Origin: Lachnospiraceae bacterium
GTDB taxonomy: Bacteria > Bacillota > Clostridia > Lachnospirales > Lachnospiraceae
Assembly (NCBI GenBank): GCA_017411305.1
Contig: JAFQQI010000005.1
Coordinates: forward strand, 1-57,096
DNA length: 57,096 nucleotides
Reading direction: 5' to 3'
Position 1 is the stretch's first letter; every line of letters starts with the position of its first letter. The translations under genes were made by a program, and so were the position numbers. This document shows, in pieces, positions 28,038 to 41,689 of this stretch. Under the pieces are notes generated by a model, which saw only the letters and a list, made by a program, of their open reading frames with translations, made no database searches and was not told the DNA's origin.

Positions 28038-29180
28038 ATGGAAGAGATATTAGTGATGTTACTGCTTGTAGTGCTGGCACTTTTGCCGGTTCTGCTGATA
28101 GCGCTGGATATTGTATTTGCGGTAAAGAAGAAGGAAAGACCGATATTTGAGCTGTCAGCTTTTTTTGTGGGCGGCATTTATGTGATGTTTGCCTATATTC
28201 TTTGGGATGTGCCGGACTATACCACCTCTTTGAATGTTTATGGGACATCCAATATGCATGAGCCCTTTGCCATGATACATATGCCTGCAGTTATGGTGTT
28301 TGCGGTTTGGGGTTTCCTTAGCTATTTTGTTCTGAAGTTCGGACGAAAGAAGCTGCCGCCTTTGGCAGAGGTGTTTTTGTTGGCGGGACTATATGTGGGC
28401 TGTGGACTAAGCTGCGTATGGCTGTTTCAGCTGCTGTGCGGAGCAAGACCGTCGATGTCTGCAGAATTTCCGGGTTGGAAGGTAGGTCCGTACGGAAACA
28501 CGTTTGATATGTTTATGATGTTATGCCTGTGTGTGGTGCCTATCCTTTTTCTGATTCATGCCATTCATTTGCTTGTGCGCCTGATAAAAGAAAAGGCAGA
28601 AAAACAAGTCGGATTACAGTATCAGAATCCGCTGATTCAGAAAATGAATCAGTGGCTTTTGCAAAGCATCAATCTGTTTTGGGTGGCATTTCTCGCGTTG
28701 GTGCCGGTGCTGGGTATTTTGGTAATGTTGCTTTGTCTGTTTGGACAACAGCCTGACAGTTTTATTTTGGCATTTACCCAGACCAGTGATTGGGTTTTGT
28801 CAAAAGAAATCGCGCCACCGCCGGTGGCATATGATACCCATTATTTATGCACAGTGTCTTTGCGGGGACATAGAAAGCTGGTAAAGCCTATCCGCTTCGG
28901 TATGCGCCGGGGAGAAAAGATTGTGGTAAACAGGCAGCTTTGCGTGGCAAATGCTTTTGAACAGCTTATAGAAGAGCGTGCTCCGAAGTTTCATAGAGCA
29001 GTAAGACAGTTTTACGATACATACGGTTATCCGATTTCCAGACATATCAATCATGCCTGGAGCGCAGATATTGTGTATCTGATGATGAAGCCGCTAGAGT
29101 GGATTTTTGTTGCGGTGTTGTATTTATTCGATGAAAAGCCGGAGAATAGAATTTGCAGTCAGTATTTACCTAAAGAATAG
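28038..29180 (+). CDS. DUF6688-like membrane protein
   Basis: The ATG at 28038 follows AAAGGAG and gives 380 residues. Six or so hydrophobic segments (about 5-25, 40-60, 75-95, 115-135, 160-180, 220-245) precede a soluble C-terminal domain of about 130 residues with HYLCTVSLRGHRKLVKPIRFGMRRG and KFHRAVRQFYDTYGYPISRHI. The best family guess is DUF6688, of unknown function. A short degenerate copy of its C-terminal part lies at 31707-31844. It follows the MATE gene closely and may be co-transcribed. Confidence 0.7.
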   Translation: MEEILVMLLLVVLALLPVLLIALDIVFAVKKKERPIFELSAFFVGGIYVMFAYILWDVPDYTTSLNVYGTSNMHEPFAMIHMPAVMVFAVWGFLSYFVLKFGRKKLPPLAEVFLLAGLYVGCGLSCVWLFQLLCGARPSMSAEFPGWKVGPYGNTFDMFMMLCLCVVPILFLIHAIHLLVRLIKEKAEKQVGLQYQNPLIQKMNQWLLQSINLFWVAFLALVPVLGILVMLLCLFGQQPDSFILAFTQTSDWVLSKEIAPPPVAYDTHYLCTVSLRGHRKLVKPIRFGMRRGEKIVVNRQLCVANAFEQLIEERAPKFHRAVRQFYDTYGYPISRHINHAWSADIVYLMMKPLEWIFVAVLYLFDEKPENRICSQYLPKE

Positions 29181-29231
29181 GTGTGGCTAAGTAATTAAGA
29201 AATGTTTGGGAAAAGATACGGAGAAATAATT

Positions 29232-29552
29232 GTGAAAACGACAGTTCTTAGGTGGCTTACATTGATGGGTGCAGTTTTGACTTTAATAGTGACAGTGTTA
29301 ATGTGGGTAAGAATTAACCAGCAGAATGTAAGCTATGAAGAGGTTGAAGCATTTTCCGGATATGAGGTATACAAAGGAAGCTATGCTACGATGTATTTTG
29401 CAAATGGTAAAATGTATTCTAATATAGTCGGTATAAAGACAGATGGAATTGCATTTTATATTTATCTGGGAGCTTTGATGAGTACGGTTGTTTTTCTGAC
29501 GCTACACGTTGTATTTGTGAAGAAAAGCGATGAAAGGACACGATATGATTAA
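29232..29552 (+). CDS. Small membrane protein, unknown function
   Basis: A GTG at 29232 with GGAGA 7 bp upstream gives 106 residues; an ATG at 29202 has no ribosome site. Two hydrophobic helices (about 5-25 and 75-98) flank an external loop of about 50 residues rich in Tyr and Gly (SGYEVYKGSYATMYFANG). I recognise no family. Its 3' end overlaps the next start by 8 bp, so the genes are translationally linked. Confidence 0.65.
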   Translation: MKTTVLRWLTLMGAVLTLIVTVLMWVRINQQNVSYEEVEAFSGYEVYKGSYATMYFANGKMYSNIVGIKTDGIAFYIYLGALMSTVVFLTLHVVFVKKSDERTRYD

Positions 29553-30225
29553 TTCTTTTGATGAATTTTGTGATAAATTATTGGAATGCGGATTTTCTAT
29601 GGGTGGTGGTAATGCCAAAGGAATCTATGCAATTATTCCGTTTGACTGGAAAACTTCTATTCCGGGATGTCCCATAGTATGGCATACGGGAGATGCGGAA
29701 ACAGACCCTTGGGAGTGGAGAATGCGGGTGCTGGAGGAGCGGGATGATATTGCCTATGGAAAGGTTTTCTTTGGCAGCGGCGGATACATTACAAAGGAAT
29801 GGTATCCCTATTTTCTGGCAGTCCGCAGACAGGGACTTATTTTTGATGAGTGGTATCATGAAGGAAAAGCCGGTTTATTGGAGAAGAAGATATATGAAGC
29901 CATCGAGCAAAATGAGCATATGGCACTTCATGATTTGAAAAAAGAATGTGGTATTACCAAGGAAAGTTCCGGGCAATTTGATAGGGCACTTATCAATCTG
30001 CAAAGGAATCTGTTTATTACCATGTGCGGAAGAAAACAAAAGGTAAGCAGCTTGGGGAAACCATACGGCTGGAACAGCACGGTGTTTACTACCGTGGAGA
30101 ATTTCTGGGGTGAGGATTTGACACCGGATATCTCTGCAGACGAGGCGTATGATAAGATAAAAGAGCGCATTTTGTTTTTGAATCCAAAAGCAGTGGAAAA
30201 GGATATTAAGAAGTTTATTGGCTAA
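29545..30225 (+). CDS. AlkZ-related protein
   Basis: The ATG at 29545 lies 6 bp after AAAGGA and gives 226 residues. The protein resembles the short AlkZ-related group of Firmicutes: DPWEWRMRVLEERDDIAYGKVFFG and then a winged-helix-like segment with KKECGITKESSGQFDRALINLQRN. AlkZ proteins are DNA glycosylases that unhook crosslinks, but these shorter relatives lack proof of glycosylase activity. The gene overlaps the preceding membrane-protein gene. Assignment is from motif memory only. Confidence 0.7.
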   Translation: MINSFDEFCDKLLECGFSMGGGNAKGIYAIIPFDWKTSIPGCPIVWHTGDAETDPWEWRMRVLEERDDIAYGKVFFGSGGYITKEWYPYFLAVRRQGLIFDEWYHEGKAGLLEKKIYEAIEQNEHMALHDLKKECGITKESSGQFDRALINLQRNLFITMCGRKQKVSSLGKPYGWNSTVFTTVENFWGEDLTPDISADEAYDKIKERILFLNPKAVEKDIKKFIG

Positions 30226-30251
30226 GAGAAACGGAATTGTGAGGAGAGCAA

Positions 30252-30638
30252 ATGAAGAATTATACGCAGGTATATGTAAAAAACAGTTTTGAAGCGGCAG
30301 AAATGTACTGTAAAGCTTTTGGTGCAGAGATTACGCGTGAGTTTATAAATGAGGATAATACTTTTTATGAGCACTGTGAATTATCGGTAGGCGGAGAAGG
30401 GTTTTTGGCGTTGGCAGAAGCAAAAAATCCATGTGATATCGATGTGGTCCACAAGTACAAATGGGAAACCATGACTTTTAATGTATTTGAGATGGGAACC
30501 GAGGAAGCAGTCTATAAGGCGTTTGAGGTTTTGAGCGAAGGTGGCGTGGTCCTTGAACCGATTCATGAACTTCCGTGGAGTAAATGTAATGCCACAATTA
30601 TTGATAAATATGGAGTGTGCTGGTGGATTTCGATATAG
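30252..30638 (+). CDS. VOC-family (PhnB-like) protein
   Basis: The 128-residue protein has the glyoxalase/VOC fold pattern: YVKNSFEAAEMYCKAFGAEI at the start and a C-terminal half ending ELPWSKCNATIIDKYGVCWWISI, as in PhnB-like proteins. Members bind metal or small ligands; some confer fosfomycin or bleomycin tolerance, but that cannot be claimed here. GAGGAG precedes the ATG, and a terminator follows. Confidence 0.85.
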   Translation: MKNYTQVYVKNSFEAAEMYCKAFGAEITREFINEDNTFYEHCELSVGGEGFLALAEAKNPCDIDVVHKYKWETMTFNVFEMGTEEAVYKAFEVLSEGGVVLEPIHELPWSKCNATIIDKYGVCWWISI

Positions 30639-30655
30639 TAAAATAACTGGTGTGA

Positions 30656-30699
30656 GAAAAGGGTGTGAGAAAAGGTATCACACCTTTTCCATTTTTTTG
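30656..30699 (+). terminator. Terminator after the VOC gene
   Basis: GAAAAGGGTGTGA pairs with TCACACCTTTTC (one bulge), followed by seven T residues. Confidence 0.85.
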
Positions 30700-30727
30700 A
30701 TAGGTTTAGATAACTAAATATTAAATA

Positions 30728-30756
30728 TTTACTATCATAAACTTGTATGATATACT
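30728..30756 (+). promoter_or_regulatory. Promoter of the HTH-Fic gene
   Basis: TTTACT (30728-30733), a 17-bp spacer and TATACT (30751-30756). The spacer and its flanks are AT-rich with short inverted repeats (ATCATA/TATGAT), which may be the operator for the gene's own HTH domain. Confidence 0.65.
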
Positions 30757-30784
30757 ATAGATACTTTGAAAGGTGGTAGATGGC

Positions 30785-31708
30785 ATGATTTCGTACAAAA
30801 AGTTATTCTTGCTGATGGAAGAAAGAGAAATATCCAAAGAAAAACTGAAAAATGCAATCGGGATATCTTCGGCGACTATGGCAAAGTTGGCAAAGAATGA
30901 AGAGGTTGCAATGTCAACAATATATGCATTGTGCAATTACTTTGATTGTCAGCCCGGTGCCATTTTATCATACGAAAAAGAAATTGATGAAAATTCAATT
31001 TTATTTAAGCTCAGAGAAGAACAAAGCATGAAATTAAAAGGTGGTTTATATCATCAAACACAAATCAGGCTGGCATACAATTCAAATCACATGGAAGGCA
31101 GCAGATTGACAGAAGATCAAACGAGAAGCATATATGAAACACGAACAATAGGTGTTACCGACGGGTATGAAAATATTGATGATATTATTGAAACTGTAAA
31201 TCATTTCAGATGCTTTGATTATATTCTGAGGGTTGCAGACAAAGAAGTGTCAGAAGATATCATAAAGCATATCCATTTGGTGTTAAAAAGCGGAACAACA
31301 GATAGTGAGAAAGAGTGGTTTGCCGTCGGAGAATATAAAAAAAGACCTAATATGATCGGTGATATGGTTGATACAACACATCCGACTAAAGTGGCATATG
31401 AGATGAAGCAATTATTAAAAGAATATAGAGAGAACGATAATATAACATTTGAAGATATCATTGATTTTCATTATAGGTTTGAGAAGATACATCCTTTTCA
31501 GGACGGTAATGGCCGTGTCGGCCGATTGATAATGTTTAAGGAATGCTTAAAAAATAATATTCCGCCATTCATTGTCGAAGATGTATCAAAGGAATATTAC
31601 AGAAGAGGGTTAAAAGAATATTTAACAGAAAAAGGTTTTTTGCAGGAAACATGCAGAGCGGCTCAGGATGCATATAAAAAGTTATTAGAGTATTTTGAAT
31701 ATATTTGA
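30785..31708 (+). CDS. Fic-domain AMPylase-like protein with N-terminal HTH
   Basis: The 307-residue protein starts at an ATG after AAAGGTGG. Residues 1-65 are a Cro/C1 HTH of the short Firmicute type (YKKLFLLMEEREISKEKL ... CNYFDCQPGAIL). The Fic domain follows, with the complete active loop HPFQDGNGRVGRL (about 233-245). An S-x3-E-G inhibitory motif (SNHMEG, about 102-107) sits before the Fic core, the arrangement of class II Fic proteins. Fic enzymes transfer AMP or other phosphates to target proteins. The fused HTH points to self-regulated expression. Targets are unknown. Confidence 0.92.
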   Translation: MISYKKLFLLMEEREISKEKLKNAIGISSATMAKLAKNEEVAMSTIYALCNYFDCQPGAILSYEKEIDENSILFKLREEQSMKLKGGLYHQTQIRLAYNSNHMEGSRLTEDQTRSIYETRTIGVTDGYENIDDIIETVNHFRCFDYILRVADKEVSEDIIKHIHLVLKSGTTDSEKEWFAVGEYKKRPNMIGDMVDTTHPTKVAYEMKQLLKEYRENDNITFEDIIDFHYRFEKIHPFQDGNGRVGRLIMFKECLKNNIPPFIVEDVSKEYYRRGLKEYLTEKGFLQETCRAAQDAYKKLLEYFEYI

Positions 31709-31844
31709 GAATGGGAAAATAGAAGAATGCACGCCGAGGTTCCACAGAGCGGTGAGACGGTTTTATGATATTTATGGGTATCCGATATTGAGCTTTCGGA
31801 AAAAAGATTTGTCGCTTAATTCATACAATTCGGGGGATGTATAA
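31707..31844 (+). pseudogene. Degenerate DUF6688 C-terminal fragment
   Basis: In one frame this stretch encodes TPRFHRAVRRFYDIYGYPI, closely matching APKFHRAVRQFYDTYGYPI in the intact gene at 28038-29180, then diverges and stops at 31842. It has no start codon or ribosome site. It begins right at the Fic stop. It is best read as the scar of a second DUF6688 gene, possibly lost when the Fic gene arrived. Confidence 0.75.
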
Positions 31845-31859
31845 AAATGGCTGTCATTC

Positions 31860-31888
31860 TTGTAAAGTTACCCATAATATGCTACAAT
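31860..31888 (+). promoter_or_regulatory. Promoter of the 174-residue protein gene
   Basis: TTGTAA (31860-31865), a 17-bp spacer and TACAAT (31883-31888), 48 bp before the ATG. It also lies upstream of the RT-associated RNA and could feed that region by read-through. Confidence 0.7.
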
Positions 31889-31936
31889 TTCACATAAGAA
31901 TATTGGGGTGTCAAAGAGCTTTAAGGAGGGGTGTTT

Positions 31937-32461
31937 ATGGGATTTTTAGATAATTTATTAAAGAAGGAAGCCAGAAAAATTATTTCCGGAGTGGTAGACA
32001 GTGTAGTTGATAACGTGCTTGATGGTGCAAAAGAAGCTGTGAATCAGAGTGGCATCAGCGGCAATGTGCAAAAGAAGACACAGACGGCAATTAACCGTGC
32101 GAGTGAAGCAAGTGCGGTTTGTAACGAGGAAGAAAGTTGCTATGGGAAGGAATCTGTAGTGCGTGCGCGTATGGAACAGTGCCTTACAAGGGAATTTCCC
32201 GGTTATACACTGAGAAAGAATGTGAGCGCTTCTGAAATCGGAACGTATGACATTGCGTGGACATATACATACGGTATTTACCGTGACGGACAGGCAGTTG
32301 CCATGATTAACCTGCTTGCCGGAGCTAACGACTATAAGAGAAAGATTGTTTTGCAGTCTAAGACTGCCTGCAGAAATGCAGGAATAGGCTATGTTCATTT
32401 TATTTTACGTCTTCCCAACAGAAGCAGTTATGTTGCGCAGCAGCTTCGCAGTATTCTGTAA
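31937..32461 (+). CDS. Uncharacterised protein (174 aa)
   Basis: The ATG at 31937 follows AGGAGGGG. The N-terminal about 60 residues look amphipathic and helical (FLDNLLKKEARKIISGVVDSVVDNVLDGAKEAV), like a membrane-associating or self-assembling helix. The C-terminal part (about 70-174) is a compact mixed domain with SASEIGTYDIAWTYTYGIYRDGQAVAMINLLAGAND and NAGIGYVHFILRLPN. That order recalls PD-(D/E)XK-like or small nuclease folds, but no clear active site is seen, so no function is given. It lies directly before the RT-linked RNA, 30 bp away, and could belong to that system or just be a neighbour. Confidence 0.7.
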   Translation: MGFLDNLLKKEARKIISGVVDSVVDNVLDGAKEAVNQSGISGNVQKKTQTAINRASEASAVCNEEESCYGKESVVRARMEQCLTREFPGYTLRKNVSASEIGTYDIAWTYTYGIYRDGQAVAMINLLAGANDYKRKIVLQSKTACRNAGIGYVHFILRLPNRSSYVAQQLRSIL

Positions 32462-32490
32462 GAGAGACAGAACAGTTAAATAATTTCAGC

Positions 32491-32639
32491 AAAAAAGAGA
32501 GAAATGCAATGTAACATTGCGCCCGTTTAGGATGAAGCATATTTTTTACCGATAGGCGTTTTGCGGGCGACGGAAATATGTTAAGTCCGGTACCATAAGC
32601 ACGGCTTTATGGTTTCAAAGCTGTTTCTCTCTTTTTTTT
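32491..32639 (+). ncRNA. Structured RNA upstream of the reverse transcriptase
   Basis: A 149-nt stretch closed by an uninterrupted 14-bp stem: AAAAAAGAGAGAAA (32491-32504) pairs with TTTCTCTCTTTTTT (32624-32637), ending in eight T residues. Inside are a 6-bp hairpin GCAATG-TAA-CATTGC (32506-32520), a GCCCG/CGGGC helix (32521-32525 with 32564-32568), AGCATATTT with AAATATGTT (32536-32544 with 32574-32582), and ACCATAAGC with GCTTTATGGT (32592-32613). The second and third helices interleave, forming a pseudoknot. No coding frame fits. The RNA ends 56 bp before an RT gene, the place where template RNAs of retrons and DRT systems lie. A weak promoter (TTCTGT, 17 bp, TAAATA) would start transcription near 32490. 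Confidence 0.75.
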
Positions 32640-32695
32640 GTAGAAAAAAGTATCGATAGAGTAGGTCATGGGATGGCTAAGGAGAATGGTTTGGG

Positions 32696-33907
32696 ATGAA
32701 AATTGTGCAGAAAGCATCCCTTGCTCAATGCTGGTGGGATTTTTTAGATTATAAAATAGAAAAGCAGCACTTATCAAAGCGCGAGGAACAGGAAATCAGT
32801 GATTTTATTGAGGAGAAGCAGTATGCTCTCTTATGTTGTGATTTGGAGGAAGGGCTTTTTCCCGGAAGTCTTCCGGCCAAAAAGACCATCAATAAGATAG
32901 GGACAGGAAAAAAGAGAGTGGTTTATACATTTGAAGGTGCGGATGGTATTTTCTTAAAATTCATTGCATTTCAATTGTTTGCCTATGATGATGTGTTTGC
33001 ATCCAATTGTTATGCGTTTCGCCGTGGATTTGGTGTTAAGGAGGCACTTCGGCGTTTGCTTACGGATAAAAGAGTAGCAAACAGTTATTGCCTAAAGGTA
33101 GACATCAGTAACTATTTTAATTCTATTAATGTGGAATTGTTGATAGAGAAGCTTTTTTTTATAAAGCAGAGAGATGATGTACTTTATGAGATGTTCGTGC
33201 GGATTCTCCGAGAAAAAAGGGTGTGCGAGAACGGTAATATGAAAGAAGAGGCACACGGTGCTATGGCAGGCACACCGATAGCGCCATTTCTTGCTAATTT
33301 GTATATGGCAGATGTAGATGCTTATTTTGAAAAAGAAGATGTGCTGTATTTCAGATATTCTGATGATATTCTTTTGTTTGCAGAAAGCAGAGAACTTCTG
33401 GAGGTGCGAAAACAGCAGCTTTATGAGATGATAACTCAGTTGGGACTTACGATAAATCCGAAGAAAGAAGTAATTTATCGGCCGGAAGAGGCAATAGAAT
33501 TTCTGGGTTTTGCCTATCGGAAGGGACAGATTGATTTGTCTGATACGACGATTCGGAAGATAAAAGCCAAAATAAAAAGAAAGGCCCGGGCGCTTCGTAG
33601 GTGGCAGATAAAAAAAGGCCTTTCACCGGAAAAAGCGGCAATCGGGTTTGTACATGCCATGAACCGTAAGTTTTATGGCAGTAATTCCGTAGAGGAATGT
33701 GAAGATGAATTTTGCTGGAGCAGATGGTTTTTCCCTAATCTGACAACAGATATAGGACTTAAGGAAGTGGATGCGTATATGCAACAGTATATCAGGTATA
33801 CCGTTACGGGCAGACACTACAAGGGAAACTATCGTATTCGATATGAGACCTTAAAGGAATGGGGGTATCGCAGTCTGGTACATGAATACTACATGTGTAG
33901 AGATTGA
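32696..33907 (+). CDS. Stand-alone reverse transcriptase of unassigned lineage
   Basis: The 403-residue protein has all core RT blocks: CYAFRRGFGVKEAL (about 105-118), motif A CLKVDISNYFNSI with Asp136, block 4 GTPIAPFLANLYMADVD (192-208), the catalytic FRYSDDILLF (Asp223/224), LGLTINPKKEVIY, and EFLGFAYRKGQIDLS. A basic thumb follows (KIKAKIKRKARALRRWQIKKG), then a C-terminal extension of about 65 residues (VTGRHYKGNYRIRYETLKEW...). It has no maturase, endonuclease or protease domain. YSDD replaces the usual YADD. It lacks the clear signatures I know for retron, DGR or group II intron RTs, so an 'unknown group' or DRT-like type is likely. AAGGAG lies 11 bp before the ATG. The upstream structured RNA is its likely partner. 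Confidence 0.88.
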   Translation: MKIVQKASLAQCWWDFLDYKIEKQHLSKREEQEISDFIEEKQYALLCCDLEEGLFPGSLPAKKTINKIGTGKKRVVYTFEGADGIFLKFIAFQLFAYDDVFASNCYAFRRGFGVKEALRRLLTDKRVANSYCLKVDISNYFNSINVELLIEKLFFIKQRDDVLYEMFVRILREKRVCENGNMKEEAHGAMAGTPIAPFLANLYMADVDAYFEKEDVLYFRYSDDILLFAESRELLEVRKQQLYEMITQLGLTINPKKEVIYRPEEAIEFLGFAYRKGQIDLSDTTIRKIKAKIKRKARALRRWQIKKGLSPEKAAIGFVHAMNRKFYGSNSVEECEDEFCWSRWFFPNLTTDIGLKEVDAYMQQYIRYTVTGRHYKGNYRIRYETLKEWGYRSLVHEYYMCRD

Positions 33908-33959
33908 GACATTGTAGAATGTAATAATTATACATAGAAATTAAGAGAGGAAATTGTAC

Positions 33960-34655
33960 ATGAAAAAAAGAATAGTAGGATTGTTAGTATGTTCTTTGAT
34001 GATTTTTAGTGCCTGCGCAAGCAATACCGAAACGGAGGTACTAAGTAAGGAGGTAGAGAGCAAACAGGAAGAGGCTGAAGCAGTATCCGAAAAAGAGAAG
34101 GAAAATACGGAAGAAGCAGAATCTGAAACAGATAGTGAAGTTAGTAAAATACGTACAGAGGAAGCGGAAACTGTTGCGGGAATTGAGATTAAGACGGAAG
34201 ATATAGAGTATTATTCGTCTTCCACGGAAGAATTAAAAGTAATGCATACAACATGGGTTACAGGAAGTCATCATTATTCTATGCCATATGATAAAGAACG
34301 ATTTGTCTTTGAGTCACAAGATGGAATTGATTCGTTTGTTTCTATAGATAAAAATGCTAACGGAGATGCGCTTGTTAGTGTAAAGATATATAAAAATAAA
34401 GATAATGCTGATAAGTTGATTAAGCAAATAATACATATTGAAGATTCGGAAGTGACAAGAGAAGAAAAAGAAATGGCGAGCCATGAAATAACAGAACTTC
34501 TTTCTTTTGAGGAAGAAACAACATATAAAGATTATTATATTTATAAAAATGAAGATTATAATCTGGTTGTGGAAATGTGTTCGGACCAAGAAACATTTGG
34601 TGAAATTGGAATGAATATGTTGATGTGTGTTTATTCCTTGGAATTTGATGAATAA
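33960..34655 (+). CDS. Acidic lipoprotein, unknown function
   Basis: The 231-residue protein starts MKKRIVGLLVCSLMIFSACASN, a lipoprotein signal with the lipobox cysteine at about 19, so it is anchored outside the membrane. A Glu/Ser-rich spacer (about 22-70) follows, then a domain of about 150 residues with YEYYSSSTEELKVM-like beta segments and no known family. GAGAGG precedes the ATG. The gene starts 52 bp after the RT and may be transcribed with it, but composition suggests an unrelated surface protein. Confidence 0.75.
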   Translation: MKKRIVGLLVCSLMIFSACASNTETEVLSKEVESKQEEAEAVSEKEKENTEEAESETDSEVSKIRTEEAETVAGIEIKTEDIEYYSSSTEELKVMHTTWVTGSHHYSMPYDKERFVFESQDGIDSFVSIDKNANGDALVSVKIYKNKDNADKLIKQIIHIEDSEVTREEKEMASHEITELLSFEEETTYKDYYIYKNEDYNLVVEMCSDQETFGEIGMNMLMCVYSLEFDE

Positions 34656-34667
34656 GGAGAAGTGAGT

Positions 34668-35708
34668 ATGTTATCATTTGCATGTGATTATTTAGAAGGT
34701 GCCCATGAAAAGATATTGCAACGTCTTATAGAAACCAACTATGAAAAGGTACCCGGTTACAGTGCTGACAAATATTGTGAAAGTGCCAATGAAAGAATCA
34801 AACAGGCATGTGAATGCCCGGCGGCAGAGGTGTATTTTCTTGTGGGAGGCACTCAGACCAATGCCATTGTCATCGATACCATGCTTCAAAGATACGAAGG
34901 TGTCATTGCAGCAACTACAGGACATGTAAATGTGCATGAAGCAGGTGCCATTGAACATGCCGGGCATAAAGTGTTGACGGTACCCTCTTATCAGGGAAAA
35001 ATGAAGGCTGCAGATGTGCGTAGTCTTTTACAGGGATTTTGGCAAGACGGCAGTCATGAGCATATGGTATACCCGGGTATGGTTTATCTTTCCCATCCCA
35101 CAGAGTACGGGACATTGTACAGCAAGCAGGAGCTGACAGACATTGCAGAGGTTTGCCATGAGTATCAGATTCCCCTCTATTTGGACGGTGCCCGTTTGGG
35201 ATATGGACTTATGAGCAAAAGCACAGACCTGACCTTGGCGGATATTGCCCGGATTTGTGATGTGTTTTATATTGGTGGCACCAAGGTGGGAGCACTTTGC
35301 GGCGAGGCAGCGGTATTTACCAAGCAAAATATGCCTAAGCACTTTAATACCTTGGTAAAGCAGCACGGAGCCATGCTTGCCAAGGGACGGCTTTTGGGAA
35401 TTCAGTTTGATACCTTATTTACGGACAATTTATATTTTGAAATTGCAGCCCACGCCATCCGTATGGCAGAGAAGCTGAAAGCAGGCTTTAAGGAGAGAGG
35501 TTATTCTTTCCACCTTGATTCACCCACGAATCAGCAGTTTATCATTTTATCCAATGAGCAAATAGAAAAACTCAGCGGAAAAGTAACTTTTGAGTTTTGG
35601 GAACCGGTGGATGAGACTCATCAGGTGGTACGTTTTGCTACCAGTTGGGCTACCAGGGAAGAGGATGTTGATGCGCTGATGGCACTTCTTGATGAATTGG
35701 TAAATTGA
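34668..35708 (+). CDS. Low-specificity threonine aldolase (PLP-dependent)
   Basis: The 346-residue cytosolic enzyme belongs to the beta-eliminating lyase/threonine aldolase family: FLVGGTQTNAIVIDTML, the conserved GHVNVHEAGAIE, YLDGARLGYGL and the PLP lysine in FYIGGTKVGALCG. It splits threonine into glycine and acetaldehyde. The ATG at 34668 is 8 bp after AAGGAG; the in-frame GTG at 34662 is too close. It overlaps nothing and is followed 17 bp later by a GH5-like gene. Confidence 0.9.
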   Translation: MLSFACDYLEGAHEKILQRLIETNYEKVPGYSADKYCESANERIKQACECPAAEVYFLVGGTQTNAIVIDTMLQRYEGVIAATTGHVNVHEAGAIEHAGHKVLTVPSYQGKMKAADVRSLLQGFWQDGSHEHMVYPGMVYLSHPTEYGTLYSKQELTDIAEVCHEYQIPLYLDGARLGYGLMSKSTDLTLADIARICDVFYIGGTKVGALCGEAAVFTKQNMPKHFNTLVKQHGAMLAKGRLLGIQFDTLFTDNLYFEIAAHAIRMAEKLKAGFKERGYSFHLDSPTNQQFIILSNEQIEKLSGKVTFEFWEPVDETHQVVRFATSWATREEDVDALMALLDELVN

Positions 35709-35725
35709 GGAAGGAGAAATACAAG

Positions 35726-36835
35726 ATGAGCAAAGAAATTCAGAATACAGCAAAGAAGTTATTCAATATAGACAAGCCCCTTGCCATTACCATGTGGGAT
35801 TTTTCCTGGATAGAAAGAAGATGGCCGGGAGCAGGCTTTGAGGATTGGGATAAGGCTCTTTCAGAGCTGACACAGCGTGGTTATGATGCGGTGAGAATCG
35901 AAGCTTATCCCCAGCTGGTTGCGAAGGACATTTCAAAGGAATGGACCTTAAAACCGGTGTGGAATACCCAGGACTGGGGAAGTCCTTCCATTAACAAAAT
36001 CAAACTGAAGGATGATTTCAGGGAATTTCTGTCTGCCTGCCGCAGGCATGGGGTAAGAGTGGCACTTTCCAGCTGGTTCCGTGAGGATATGGACAACACC
36101 CGTATGGAAATTAAAACACCAAAGCAGCATGCGGAAATTTGGATAAAGACCCTTGACTATATCAAAGAATGGGGAGAGCTTGACAACATTCTGTATGTGG
36201 ACTTATGTAACGAATTTCCGCTTGGGCTGTGGATTCCGTTTTTGGGTGGAGAGGAAGAGGAACCAAGAACATCAGCCCTTGCAAGCAATTGGATGAAGGA
36301 AGCTGTTTCTGTATTTAAAGAAGCCTATCCACAGATTCCAGTTACTTTTTCTTATACAGTACCTTATCCTGATGTGAATGAGGACGTCAGCTTTCTGGAT
36401 TTTCTGGAGGTTCATATCTGGATGGCACAGGTTAGTGACTACTATGATAAGGTGGGCTATCATTACGAACGATTTGATGATATCGGTTATACTAATATGG
36501 CGCTGAAAGGCAAGCAGATATACATGGAAAATGAACAGCACTATATGCAGTGTCTGGTGGATGGAATTGTGAAGCTTGCACAGTGGTCCAAAAACAGTGG
36601 CAAGCCGTTGATTACAACGGAATGTTGGGCAGTTGTGGATTACAAAGACGGACCGCTTCTTGAATGGGAGTGGATTTTAGACCTGAATCGTCTTGGTGTG
36701 GAAACGGCTGCGGCCTTAGGATGCTGGGCAGGTATTGCCACCAGCAACTTCTGCGCACCTCAGTTTGTGGGAATGTGGAGAGAGGAAAAGTGGCACCATA
36801 AAATGACTGATACGATCCATCGCAGCTGGGAATAA
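35726..36835 (+). CDS. Cellulase-like (GH5-type clan A) protein
   Basis: The 369-residue protein has a TIM-barrel glycosidase pattern with the acid/base Glu in LYVDLCNEFPLGLW (about 168) and the nucleophile Glu in PLITTECWAVVDY (about 300), both at strand ends as in clan GH-A. No signal peptide is present, so it is intracellular. The substrate is unknown. Family members annotated as sugar-binding cellulase-like proteins are frequent in gut Firmicutes. GGAAGGAG precedes the ATG at 35726, which overlaps no other gene. Confidence 0.8.
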   Translation: MSKEIQNTAKKLFNIDKPLAITMWDFSWIERRWPGAGFEDWDKALSELTQRGYDAVRIEAYPQLVAKDISKEWTLKPVWNTQDWGSPSINKIKLKDDFREFLSACRRHGVRVALSSWFREDMDNTRMEIKTPKQHAEIWIKTLDYIKEWGELDNILYVDLCNEFPLGLWIPFLGGEEEEPRTSALASNWMKEAVSVFKEAYPQIPVTFSYTVPYPDVNEDVSFLDFLEVHIWMAQVSDYYDKVGYHYERFDDIGYTNMALKGKQIYMENEQHYMQCLVDGIVKLAQWSKNSGKPLITTECWAVVDYKDGPLLEWEWILDLNRLGVETAAALGCWAGIATSNFCAPQFVGMWREEKWHHKMTDTIHRSWE

Positions 36836-36903
36836 CATTCATAAAAATGTTTGGAAGATTTTAAAGAACTTTTAACAAACCGTTAATATTTGAATAGTTG
36901 AAT

Positions 36904-36943
36904 AAAAACCGTAAATCTGTTACAATAAGATTTGCGGTTTTTT
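36904..36943 (+). terminator. Terminator upstream of secA
   Basis: AAAACCGTAAATCT pairs with AGATTTGCGGTTTT around GTTACAATA and is followed by T residues. It separates secA from the preceding genes. The stretch 36944-37024 carries the secA leader. Confidence 0.88.
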
Positions 36944-37024
36944 GATTATTTTGCATAATTAAGACCGTGTAGAGCGTGGATGCTTTTACAGAAAGCAGCC
37001 AGCCTGACATAGTGAGGTGACCAT

Positions 37025-40840: not shown

Positions 40841-41689
40841 CTATGAATTTTTGATTGATATGTTTTCAACCAAATTATCTTTTATTCGTTCAATGCTTTT
40901 ATTGCGAGTAAGAGATTGCATTTGATAATAAGCTACGCTACGTAATTTTTTAAGGCGTTCACTCATAGGAATACCCTCACGAATCATATCTGCATTCATG
41001 CTCTCAATATTTACTAATATGATTAATTGCTCTACACTTGCATAATCTCGCATGTTTTCTTTCTTATTTCCTGTTTCGTCACGCCATTGTTTGGCAGTTT
41101 TTCCAAAGAGAGCCATATTCAGCATGTCTGCTTCACTGGCATATTTGTAATTAATTTCTTGTGGAGTAAGCTCTGGTAAGATTAAAAATTCTTTAATGGC
41201 ATCGGTATGTATTCGATAATTAATTTTTGAAAGTTCACGCTTACTGTCCCATCCGGATGAAAGCTTTTCTGCTTCTTGAGTCTTAAGTCGTTGATAATCC
41301 TTTATGATATATAGTTTAAATTCAGGAGAAATCCATGAAGCAAACTCAAAAGCAATGTCAGAGTGAGCATAGGTTCCACCATAGCGACCTGCATGAGAGG
41401 TTATTCCAATAGCATTCATTCGCTCTATCCACTGTTTAGCAGTTAAAATCAATCGTCCCGGTTCGTTTCTAACCGTATGGAATTCCGTACGGTTAAAGTT
41501 AGGATTATATAATGTTTCCCATGCTGCGAGAAAATCAATGGTGGAATAAGAACTTAACCAATTTGAGATAACGATTCTTGGATAATCAGGATTTTTGTAT
41601 TTGGCAATATCTGTTAGGGAAATATAATCATTTTGTTGCTCAGATGAAAGTAATACTGAGATTTCAGCACCATTTGCTTTGATAATCAT
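40841..41689 (-). CDS. KilA-N domain protein under apparent LexA control
   Basis: The 282-residue protein begins after AGGAGG. The KilA-N domain covers about 20-140: YISLTDIAKYKN, VISNWLSSYSTIDFLAAWE, and GRYGGTYAHSDIAFEFASWIS with KLYIIKDYQRLK. KilA-N is a DNA-binding domain of phages and bacterial proteins, often anti-repressors. The C-terminal half is a helical part of unknown role (YASEADMLNMALFGKTAKQW). Upstream, a LexA-type box overlaps the promoter, so expression probably rises on DNA damage. There are no other phage genes beside it. Confidence 0.88.
   Translation of the reverse strand: MIIKANGAEISVLLSSEQQNDYISLTDIAKYKNPDYPRIVISNWLSSYSTIDFLAAWETLYNPNFNRTEFHTVRNEPGRLILTAKQWIERMNAIGITSHAGRYGGTYAHSDIAFEFASWISPEFKLYIIKDYQRLKTQEAEKLSSGWDSKRELSKINYRIHTDAIKEFLILPELTPQEINYKYASEADMLNMALFGKTAKQWRDETGNKKENMRDYASVEQLIILVNIESMNADMIREGIPMSERLKKLRSVAYYQMQSLTRNKSIERIKDNLVENISIKNS

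Follow-up and report, generated by a model that had tools for sequence, protein, structure and literature searches.

A 57,096-nt stretch of Lachnospiraceae bacterium DNA (GCA_017411305.1, contig JAFQQI010000005.1; hereafter the window) carries an accessory gene, a noncoding RNA (ncRNA) of the Rfam family RT-5 and the gene of a UG26 reverse transcriptase (RT). Together these most likely form a tripartite system in the UG26 branch of the UG/DRT RTs, within class 2. Sequence comparison indicates that the RNA has a conserved pseudoknotted fold, that the RT is a UG26 enzyme with an intact YSDD motif, and that RNA and RT are inherited together, joined by the accessory gene at most loci. RT and RNA each belong to a catalogued family, UG26 and RT-5; as a set with the accessory gene they form a tripartite DRT that appears uncharacterised and whose predicted product can be tested. 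For this locus we infer template use, protein priming and phage defence.

The features of the locus are as follows:

31931..32461, +, accessory protein, 176 codons from GTG (ATG at 31937), with an amphipathic N-terminus, a variable linker and a predicted C-terminal PD-(D/E)XK-like domain
32491..32639, +, RT-5 ncRNA (RF03026 match at 32517-32626, folding, covariation)
32491..32504, +, closing stem P1, 5' strand, pairing with 32624-32637 over 14 bp (folding, strand-swap test)
32506..32520, +, hairpin P2 (folding, covariation)
32521..32526, +, pseudoknot 5' strand, GCCCGU (alignment columns 41-46)
32530..32533, +, P3 5' strand, pairing with 32585-32588 (covariation)
32537..32544, +, P4 5' strand, pairing with 32574-32581 (covariation)
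32557..32572, +, hairpin P5, with the pseudoknot 3' strand in its loop (Rfam model, covariation)
32563..32568, +, pseudoknot 3' strand, GCGGGC (alignment columns 102-107)
32592..32613, +, hairpin P6, immediately ahead of the presumed template loop; it may act as template boundary element (folding, pairing tests)
32602..32608, +, P6 3' side, CGGCUUU, complementary to loop positions 32617-32623 (pairing tests)
32613..32627, +, presumed template loop UUUC-AAAGCUG-UUUC, candidate A-B-A' (sequence; placed by analogy with DRT9, DRT10 and DRT3)
32624..32637, +, 3' strand of closing stem P1, which continues into a U tract in the manner of a terminator (folding)
32696..33907, +, UG26 RT, 403 amino acids (PADLOC RT_UG26, E 2.3e-157; model pLDDT 92.9)
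33356..33367, +, active-site YSDD, residues 221-224 (sequence)
33887..33892, +, tyrosines Y398-Y399 of the C-terminal tail, possible priming residues (a tail Tyr in 102 of 106 RTs)

The RT-5 RNA and its linkage to UG26 reverse transcriptases

RT-5 was the only Rfam family matched in the window at the gathering threshold. The whole model was matched with 56.4 bits against a gathering score of 45.7 (E 2.4e-8). The 149-nt RNA folds at -46.8 kcal/mol (z = -3.8), and none of 200 shuffles was as stable.

The fold was examined in 30 RNAs, with a starting alignment made by sequence and not fitted to structure. Across the 31 named pairs 94.4% of cells were paired, and both sides had changed at 28 pairs, a level of covariation reached by 0 of 500 shuffles. 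Sliding the partners lowered pairing to 38-46%, in a test favoured by the derivation of the structure from the same alignment. The best helix was the 6-bp pseudoknot, which was 99.4% paired with changes on both sides at 6 of 6 pairs; this helix is absent from the Rfam structure line and was not supplied by RNAalifold. The longest uninterrupted closing helix averaged 13.4 pairs in 101 non-redundant RNAs versus 10.2 when 3' strands were swapped between loci (60 swaps, highest 10.6). The covariation indicates that the RT-5 fold is under selection.

A set of 299 genomes from the family of the window was searched with the UG26 and RT-5 models. At E <= 0.001 the UG26 model had some match in 163 genomes, while matches of at least 260 bits occurred in 33. 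The next lower place scored 141 bits, so the remaining matches below 260 bits are regarded as other RTs or fragments. RT-5 was found in 31 genomes at 33 places. By coordinates, every one of the 33 places precedes a same-strand UG26 match by 26-630 nt; this match is a contig-edge fragment in one genome (G089) and in two pieces in another (G241).

A wider set with one genome per species was scanned with an alignment of 27 UG26 RTs. It matched at least 592 stretches; 535 of the 592 listed encode a relative, and the best 80 loci, from Lachnospiraceae, other Clostridia, Bacteroidales and Actinomycetota, were kept. Using a search model built from 30 RT-5 RNAs, one RNA was found upstream of the RT, on the RT strand, in 78 of these 80 loci; in the two loci lacking a match just 136 and 69 bases precede the RT match. 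The RNA-RT linkage is established for the nearer relatives only, because the best 80 of at least 592 stretches were kept.

The original prediction, made from the letters of the window, had proposed a 149-nt RNA with an uninterrupted 14-bp closing stem and a pseudoknot, placed 56 bp before a 403-residue YSDD RT. Its coordinates, stem, pseudoknot, active site and spacing were all correct. The Rfam search and the comparison of homologous loci that it proposed yielded RF03026 above its gathering score and covarying helices beside homologous RTs. The linkage, the covariation and, through analogy, the likeness to class 2 support its view that the RT uses the RNA as template or cofactor.

Two genomes encoded RTs that scored with the UG26 model and had no RT-5: G193 (382 bits) and G293 (367 bits), which share 34% and 32% identity with the window RT across the aligned region. 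These may be another subgroup, their flanks having been examined for open reading frames (ORFs) only. In G193 (L173, 656-4471) the RT is at the C-terminus of a 1271-aa protein; the G293 RT is at L174, 3232-4449. Both neighbor similar ORFs starting with a KIPVxIQMQxGEN-like stretch, by eye possibly peptidase-containing transporters.

Upstream of P1, a dedicated promoter with a -10 box at a fixed distance was not supported: the best TATAAT matches were scattered, mostly at -6 to -20, though single loci looked good. At three loci (L139, L109, L130) only about 8-10 nt separate the accessory stop codon from the closing stem, so the RNA probably arises by cleavage of an operon transcript or from a start within it.

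The reverse transcriptase and its accessory protein

The RT_UG26 match covered residues 1-401 of the 403-residue RT with 522 bits. Other PADLOC models scored far lower: UG27 115 bits, generic RT 110, UG17 109, UG4 109, RT-Cas1 102 and Drt9 90. Among the ncRNA-using UG types, UG17 and Drt9 were followed by Drt3a (80 bits) and Drt2 (73 bits), and AbiA (31.5), Drt5 (27.5) and Drt4 (24) scored below all of these. For a comparison of RNAs, UG17 and UG27 RTs were sought in 245 genomes each from the same class; none reached E <= 1e-60, a negative that carries no weight because the controls gave no match either. RVT_1 was the only Pfam model above its cut-off in the RT. A sequence profile reached telomerase reverse transcriptase (TERT) at E 2.2e-7, and TERT was absent among the 50 structure matches listed; neither result was counted toward kinship with telomerase.

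The excerpts of PMC12632851, PMC13174585 and PMC12483538 describe DRT2, DRT3a, DRT9 and DRT10 as class 2 members of the UG/DRT RTs that use such RNAs. Likewise, the UG26 loci hold a structured, covarying RNA beside the RT at 78 of 80 loci.

The accessory ORF was upstream on the same strand at 66 of 81 loci, the window included. Its match to PADLOC RTasCOG2852 was weak (E 2.6e-6), with 27 of 52 members at E <= 0.01. The mean confidence of the accessory model (pLDDT) was 80, and values were above 90 from about residue 70 onward. Fold matches place the predicted C-terminal domain among proteins with the PD-(D/E)XK core. In the core strands (109-116 and 119-127) no column exceeded 27% D/E among the 52 proteins, leaving the catalytic D and (D/E)xK without a conserved counterpart there. 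Acids at 100 (67%) and 162 (58%) fall outside these strands, and K121 occurred in 61%. The most conserved residues were N161, Y165, R169, F155 and G118. Since the fold is nuclease-like and the core strands lack conserved acids, the protein more likely binds than cuts.

This partner had been overlooked in the original prediction, which saw no accessory toxin; the ORF directly upstream is a conserved partner, whether or not it acts as a toxin. The implied novelty of the RNA-RT pair also fell away, with Rfam RT-5 covering the RNA and PADLOC UG26 the RT. A new RT or RNA family was rejected on the same matches. The central part of the interpretation, the link between RNA and RT, is supported.

The presumed template loop

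The presumed template is the loop that separates P6 from the closing-stem 3' strand. This loop is taken as the RT-5 equivalent because DRT9, DRT10 and DRT3 copy a loop at a comparable place (excerpts of PMC12483538, PMC13174585 and PMC12632851). It is conserved across three phyla. The loop read UUCAAAGC in 41 and UUCAAAAU in 12 of 101 RNAs (together 53), and UUC preceded AA in 79 of the 101. The window loop reads UUUCAAAGCUGUUUC.

Four of the 101 RNAs (L041, L045, L046, L054) had an AAACC loop, all at loci lacking the accessory gene (G294, G004, G041, G079), as if loop and partner had changed together.

By eye, UUUC-AAAGCUG-UUUC in the window is a possible A-B-A' arrangement like that of DRT10. 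A strict A-B-A' was not above permutation. In subsets of the RNAs the A-A' match gave p = 0.12 (30 more variable RNAs), 0.10 (22 non-UUC RNAs), 0.82 (71 others) and 0.71 (86 distinct pairs). The test is limited because the loop is U-rich and A' overlaps the closing stem. Five-nt identity of A and A' occurred in single divergent RNAs (L032, L034, L044, L055). A letter-shuffle control (p = 0.006 for 101 RNAs, 0.03 for the 22 non-UUC RNAs) was not relied on because it takes no account of the composition that the loops have in common. The windows of the A-A' and loop-P6 tests were chosen after the sequences had been viewed, making both exploratory.

The loop can also pair with the 3' side of P6 (CGGCUUU with AAAGCUG in the window), in competition with P6 itself. 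Own P6-loop helices exceeded swapped ones with z = 8.2, and with z = 9.9 when P6 was called in each RNA (101 RNAs); three subsets gave z = 5.0, 3.1 and 5.9. Swaps within RTs linked at 55% identity retained z = 3.1 (69 RNAs), and within RTs linked at 65% identity the signal was gone (41 RNAs). In a fixed register no covariation was significant in 43 RNAs (p = 0.08, 0.13, 0.57). Of two controls, one was flat (z 0.4), and loop pairing to the P6 5' strand came out borderline (z 1.7, p 0.049). Similarity between the loop and the P6 5' strand was also raised (z = 6.9), as it should be if both pair with the 3' side of P6; the P6-loop signal could alternatively stem from a duplication of sequence. As the fixed-register and 65% cluster tests gave nothing, the pairing does not stand as proven covariation. 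The complementarity appears to be preserved between distant lineages, base-by-base covariation not being demonstrated.

The statistical support for strand exchange is thus partial. If true, the nascent cDNA would be displaced from the template by the 3' strand of P6 once this hairpin opens, a built-in RNA strand exchange that would reset the template for the next repeat or hide it until infection. In its full form, which is tentative and unlikely, UG26 would be a further telomerase-like bacterial polymerase with a largely fixed repeat, competition between P6 and an alternative hairpin P6' would reset or hide the template, and the sensor of the repeat DNA would be the accessory protein, with its amphipathic N-terminus and a nuclease fold that has lost catalysis.

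Known systems and readings of the locus

DRT10 comprises a UG17 RT, an ncRNA and a SLATT protein, and has been proposed as kin of telomerase (PMC12632851, excerpt). The UG26 locus resembles it in having three parts, a compact ncRNA (137 nt in DRT10), a central stem-loop with smaller hairpins, a presumed template loop downstream of a hairpin and a UG RT of the probably ncRNA-using kind. It differs in RT type, with 109 bits to the UG17 model versus 522 to UG26, and in its partner, which is PD-(D/E)XK-like and not SLATT. No SLATT model was found in Pfam scans of 14 window proteins or 52 accessory proteins, the scans leaving aside the remaining neighbors at other loci. The loop sequence is conserved in RT-5 and variable in DRT10, and A-B-A' had no statistical support in RT-5.

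DRT9 (UG28 RT and ncRNA) copies a poly-U tract to poly-dA (excerpts of PMC12483538 and PMC12489045). In contrast, a whole copy of the typical RT-5 loop would give no homopolymer, and the Drt9 model reached just 90 bits with the window RT. The window RNA is a member of Rfam RT-5 above the gathering score; the Rfam model ends short of the closing stem and draws no pseudoknot, and the search output gives no function. PADLOC lists RT_UG26 and RTasCOG2852 as protein models under DRT, with no RNA included.

A poor fit to retrons, diversity-generating retroelements (DGRs) and group II introns, noted in the original prediction, was confirmed by model cut-offs and a repeat search. Maturase model TIGR04416 scored 114.6 against a cut-off of 300, setting the RT apart from group II intron RTs (GsI-IIC, PDB 6ar1), and no intron RNA reached the Rfam threshold in the window. 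No direct repeat of at least 24 nt was found in 29000-37000 as expected of a DGR, in a search that would miss strongly diverged or farther repeats.

Taken as a whole, the UG26 locus probably encodes a tripartite ribonucleoprotein whose loop is copied to tandem-repeat cDNA, with readout by the accessory protein and abortive phage defence as the outcome. The RT would bind the RT-5 RNA as a stable particle, and a hydroxyl in the C-terminal tail of the RT itself would prime DNA synthesis. Repeated copying of the loop between P6 and the closing-stem 3' strand would yield long single-stranded cDNA made of tandem repeats, for which CAGCTTTGAAA is the simplest unit in the window. The 5' boundary of the template would be P6, a role proposed for SL5 in DRT10. 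The accessory protein would read out this cDNA or a change in it on phage infection, and abortive defence would follow.

Two results count against parts of this reading. By model scores the RT leans toward class 2, but the generic RT (110 bits) and CRISPR RT (102 bits) models score in the range of the class 2 models. In addition, the A-A' match within single RNAs did not exceed that across RNAs (3.37 vs 3.36, p = 0.48, permutation of 101 RNAs).

RT-5 could instead be a cis-acting leader, an attenuator or autoregulatory site of RT expression that the RT may bind and does not copy. The position of the RNA just upstream of the RT gene at nearly all loci suits such a leader, as does the U tract that follows the closing stem, an arrangement resembling an intrinsic terminator. 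However, in G234 (L015/L057) the accessory gene separates RNA and RT, which are 630 nt apart, the pseudoknotted fold and conserved loop are more than an attenuator requires, and related class 2 RTs use such RNAs as templates (excerpts of PMC12632851 and PMC12483538). A leader is therefore considered quite unlikely. A retron-like system, with the closing stem as a1/a2 and a single branched RNA-linked cDNA without repeats, is highly improbable: a compact RNA with a long closing stem upstream of a small RT, and an accessory gene in the operon, would agree with it, yet the NCBIfam retron RT models fell far below cut-off (NF038233, St85, 63.5 vs 235 bits; NF038237, 23.9 vs 450) and no retron model was among the 25 PADLOC families listed.

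The cDNA-making particle might also serve a cellular role other than phage defence, such as stress response, and be kept as such by gut anaerobes. Among matching plasmid records 0 of 1739 covered 80% of the RT, and among phage records 0 of 31, so the system appears chromosomal; viral contigs held two weak loci and no UG26 match with 80% coverage. Most scanned window neighbors are also not defence-like. Such a role is nonetheless very unlikely given the patchy distribution (33 of 299 family genomes), the closeness of the RT to defence RTs and the neighbors that match candidate defence models PDC-S04 and PDC-S22.

These neighbors were found by scanning 14 window proteins, RT and accessory among them, with PADLOC. 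Directly upstream of the operon is a Fic-domain protein with an N-terminal helix-turn-helix (30773-31708, +; PDC-S04, 5.4e-106), and about 7 kb downstream is a KilA-N protein (40841-41689, -; Pfam 2.6e-20, PDC-S22 2.2e-122). Most other scanned proteins had no strong match to such models, and Pfam points to transport and metabolic genes. The surroundings give a mild hint of a defence context and form no island.

No literature joining RT-5, UG26 and the accessory protein was found in the collection searched, outside of which such papers may exist. The term UG26 was not in the Nature DRT9, DRT10 and DRT3 papers or the myRT paper, no paper on RT-5 as a structured RNA was found, RT-5 RNA was not mentioned in the ten papers listed, and RTasCOG2852 gave no match in the collection. 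In its excerpt, PMC10504277 merely names UG26 among the RT classes of cold-seep viruses; the table excerpted from the 2026 overview PMC13213688 covers DRT1-9, and UG26 is not in it.

As far as this search reached, UG26 with RT-5 is an unstudied branch for which probable RNA ends, a pseudoknot, a presumed template, candidate priming residues and a partner protein can now be named. The class 2 DRTs studied so far each write unusual DNA. If the tripartite reading is true, an Rfam motif of unlabelled role would gain a function and three separately catalogued parts would become connected. The cluster, found in gut bacteria, looks like an unstudied relative of the telomerase-like anti-virus systems.
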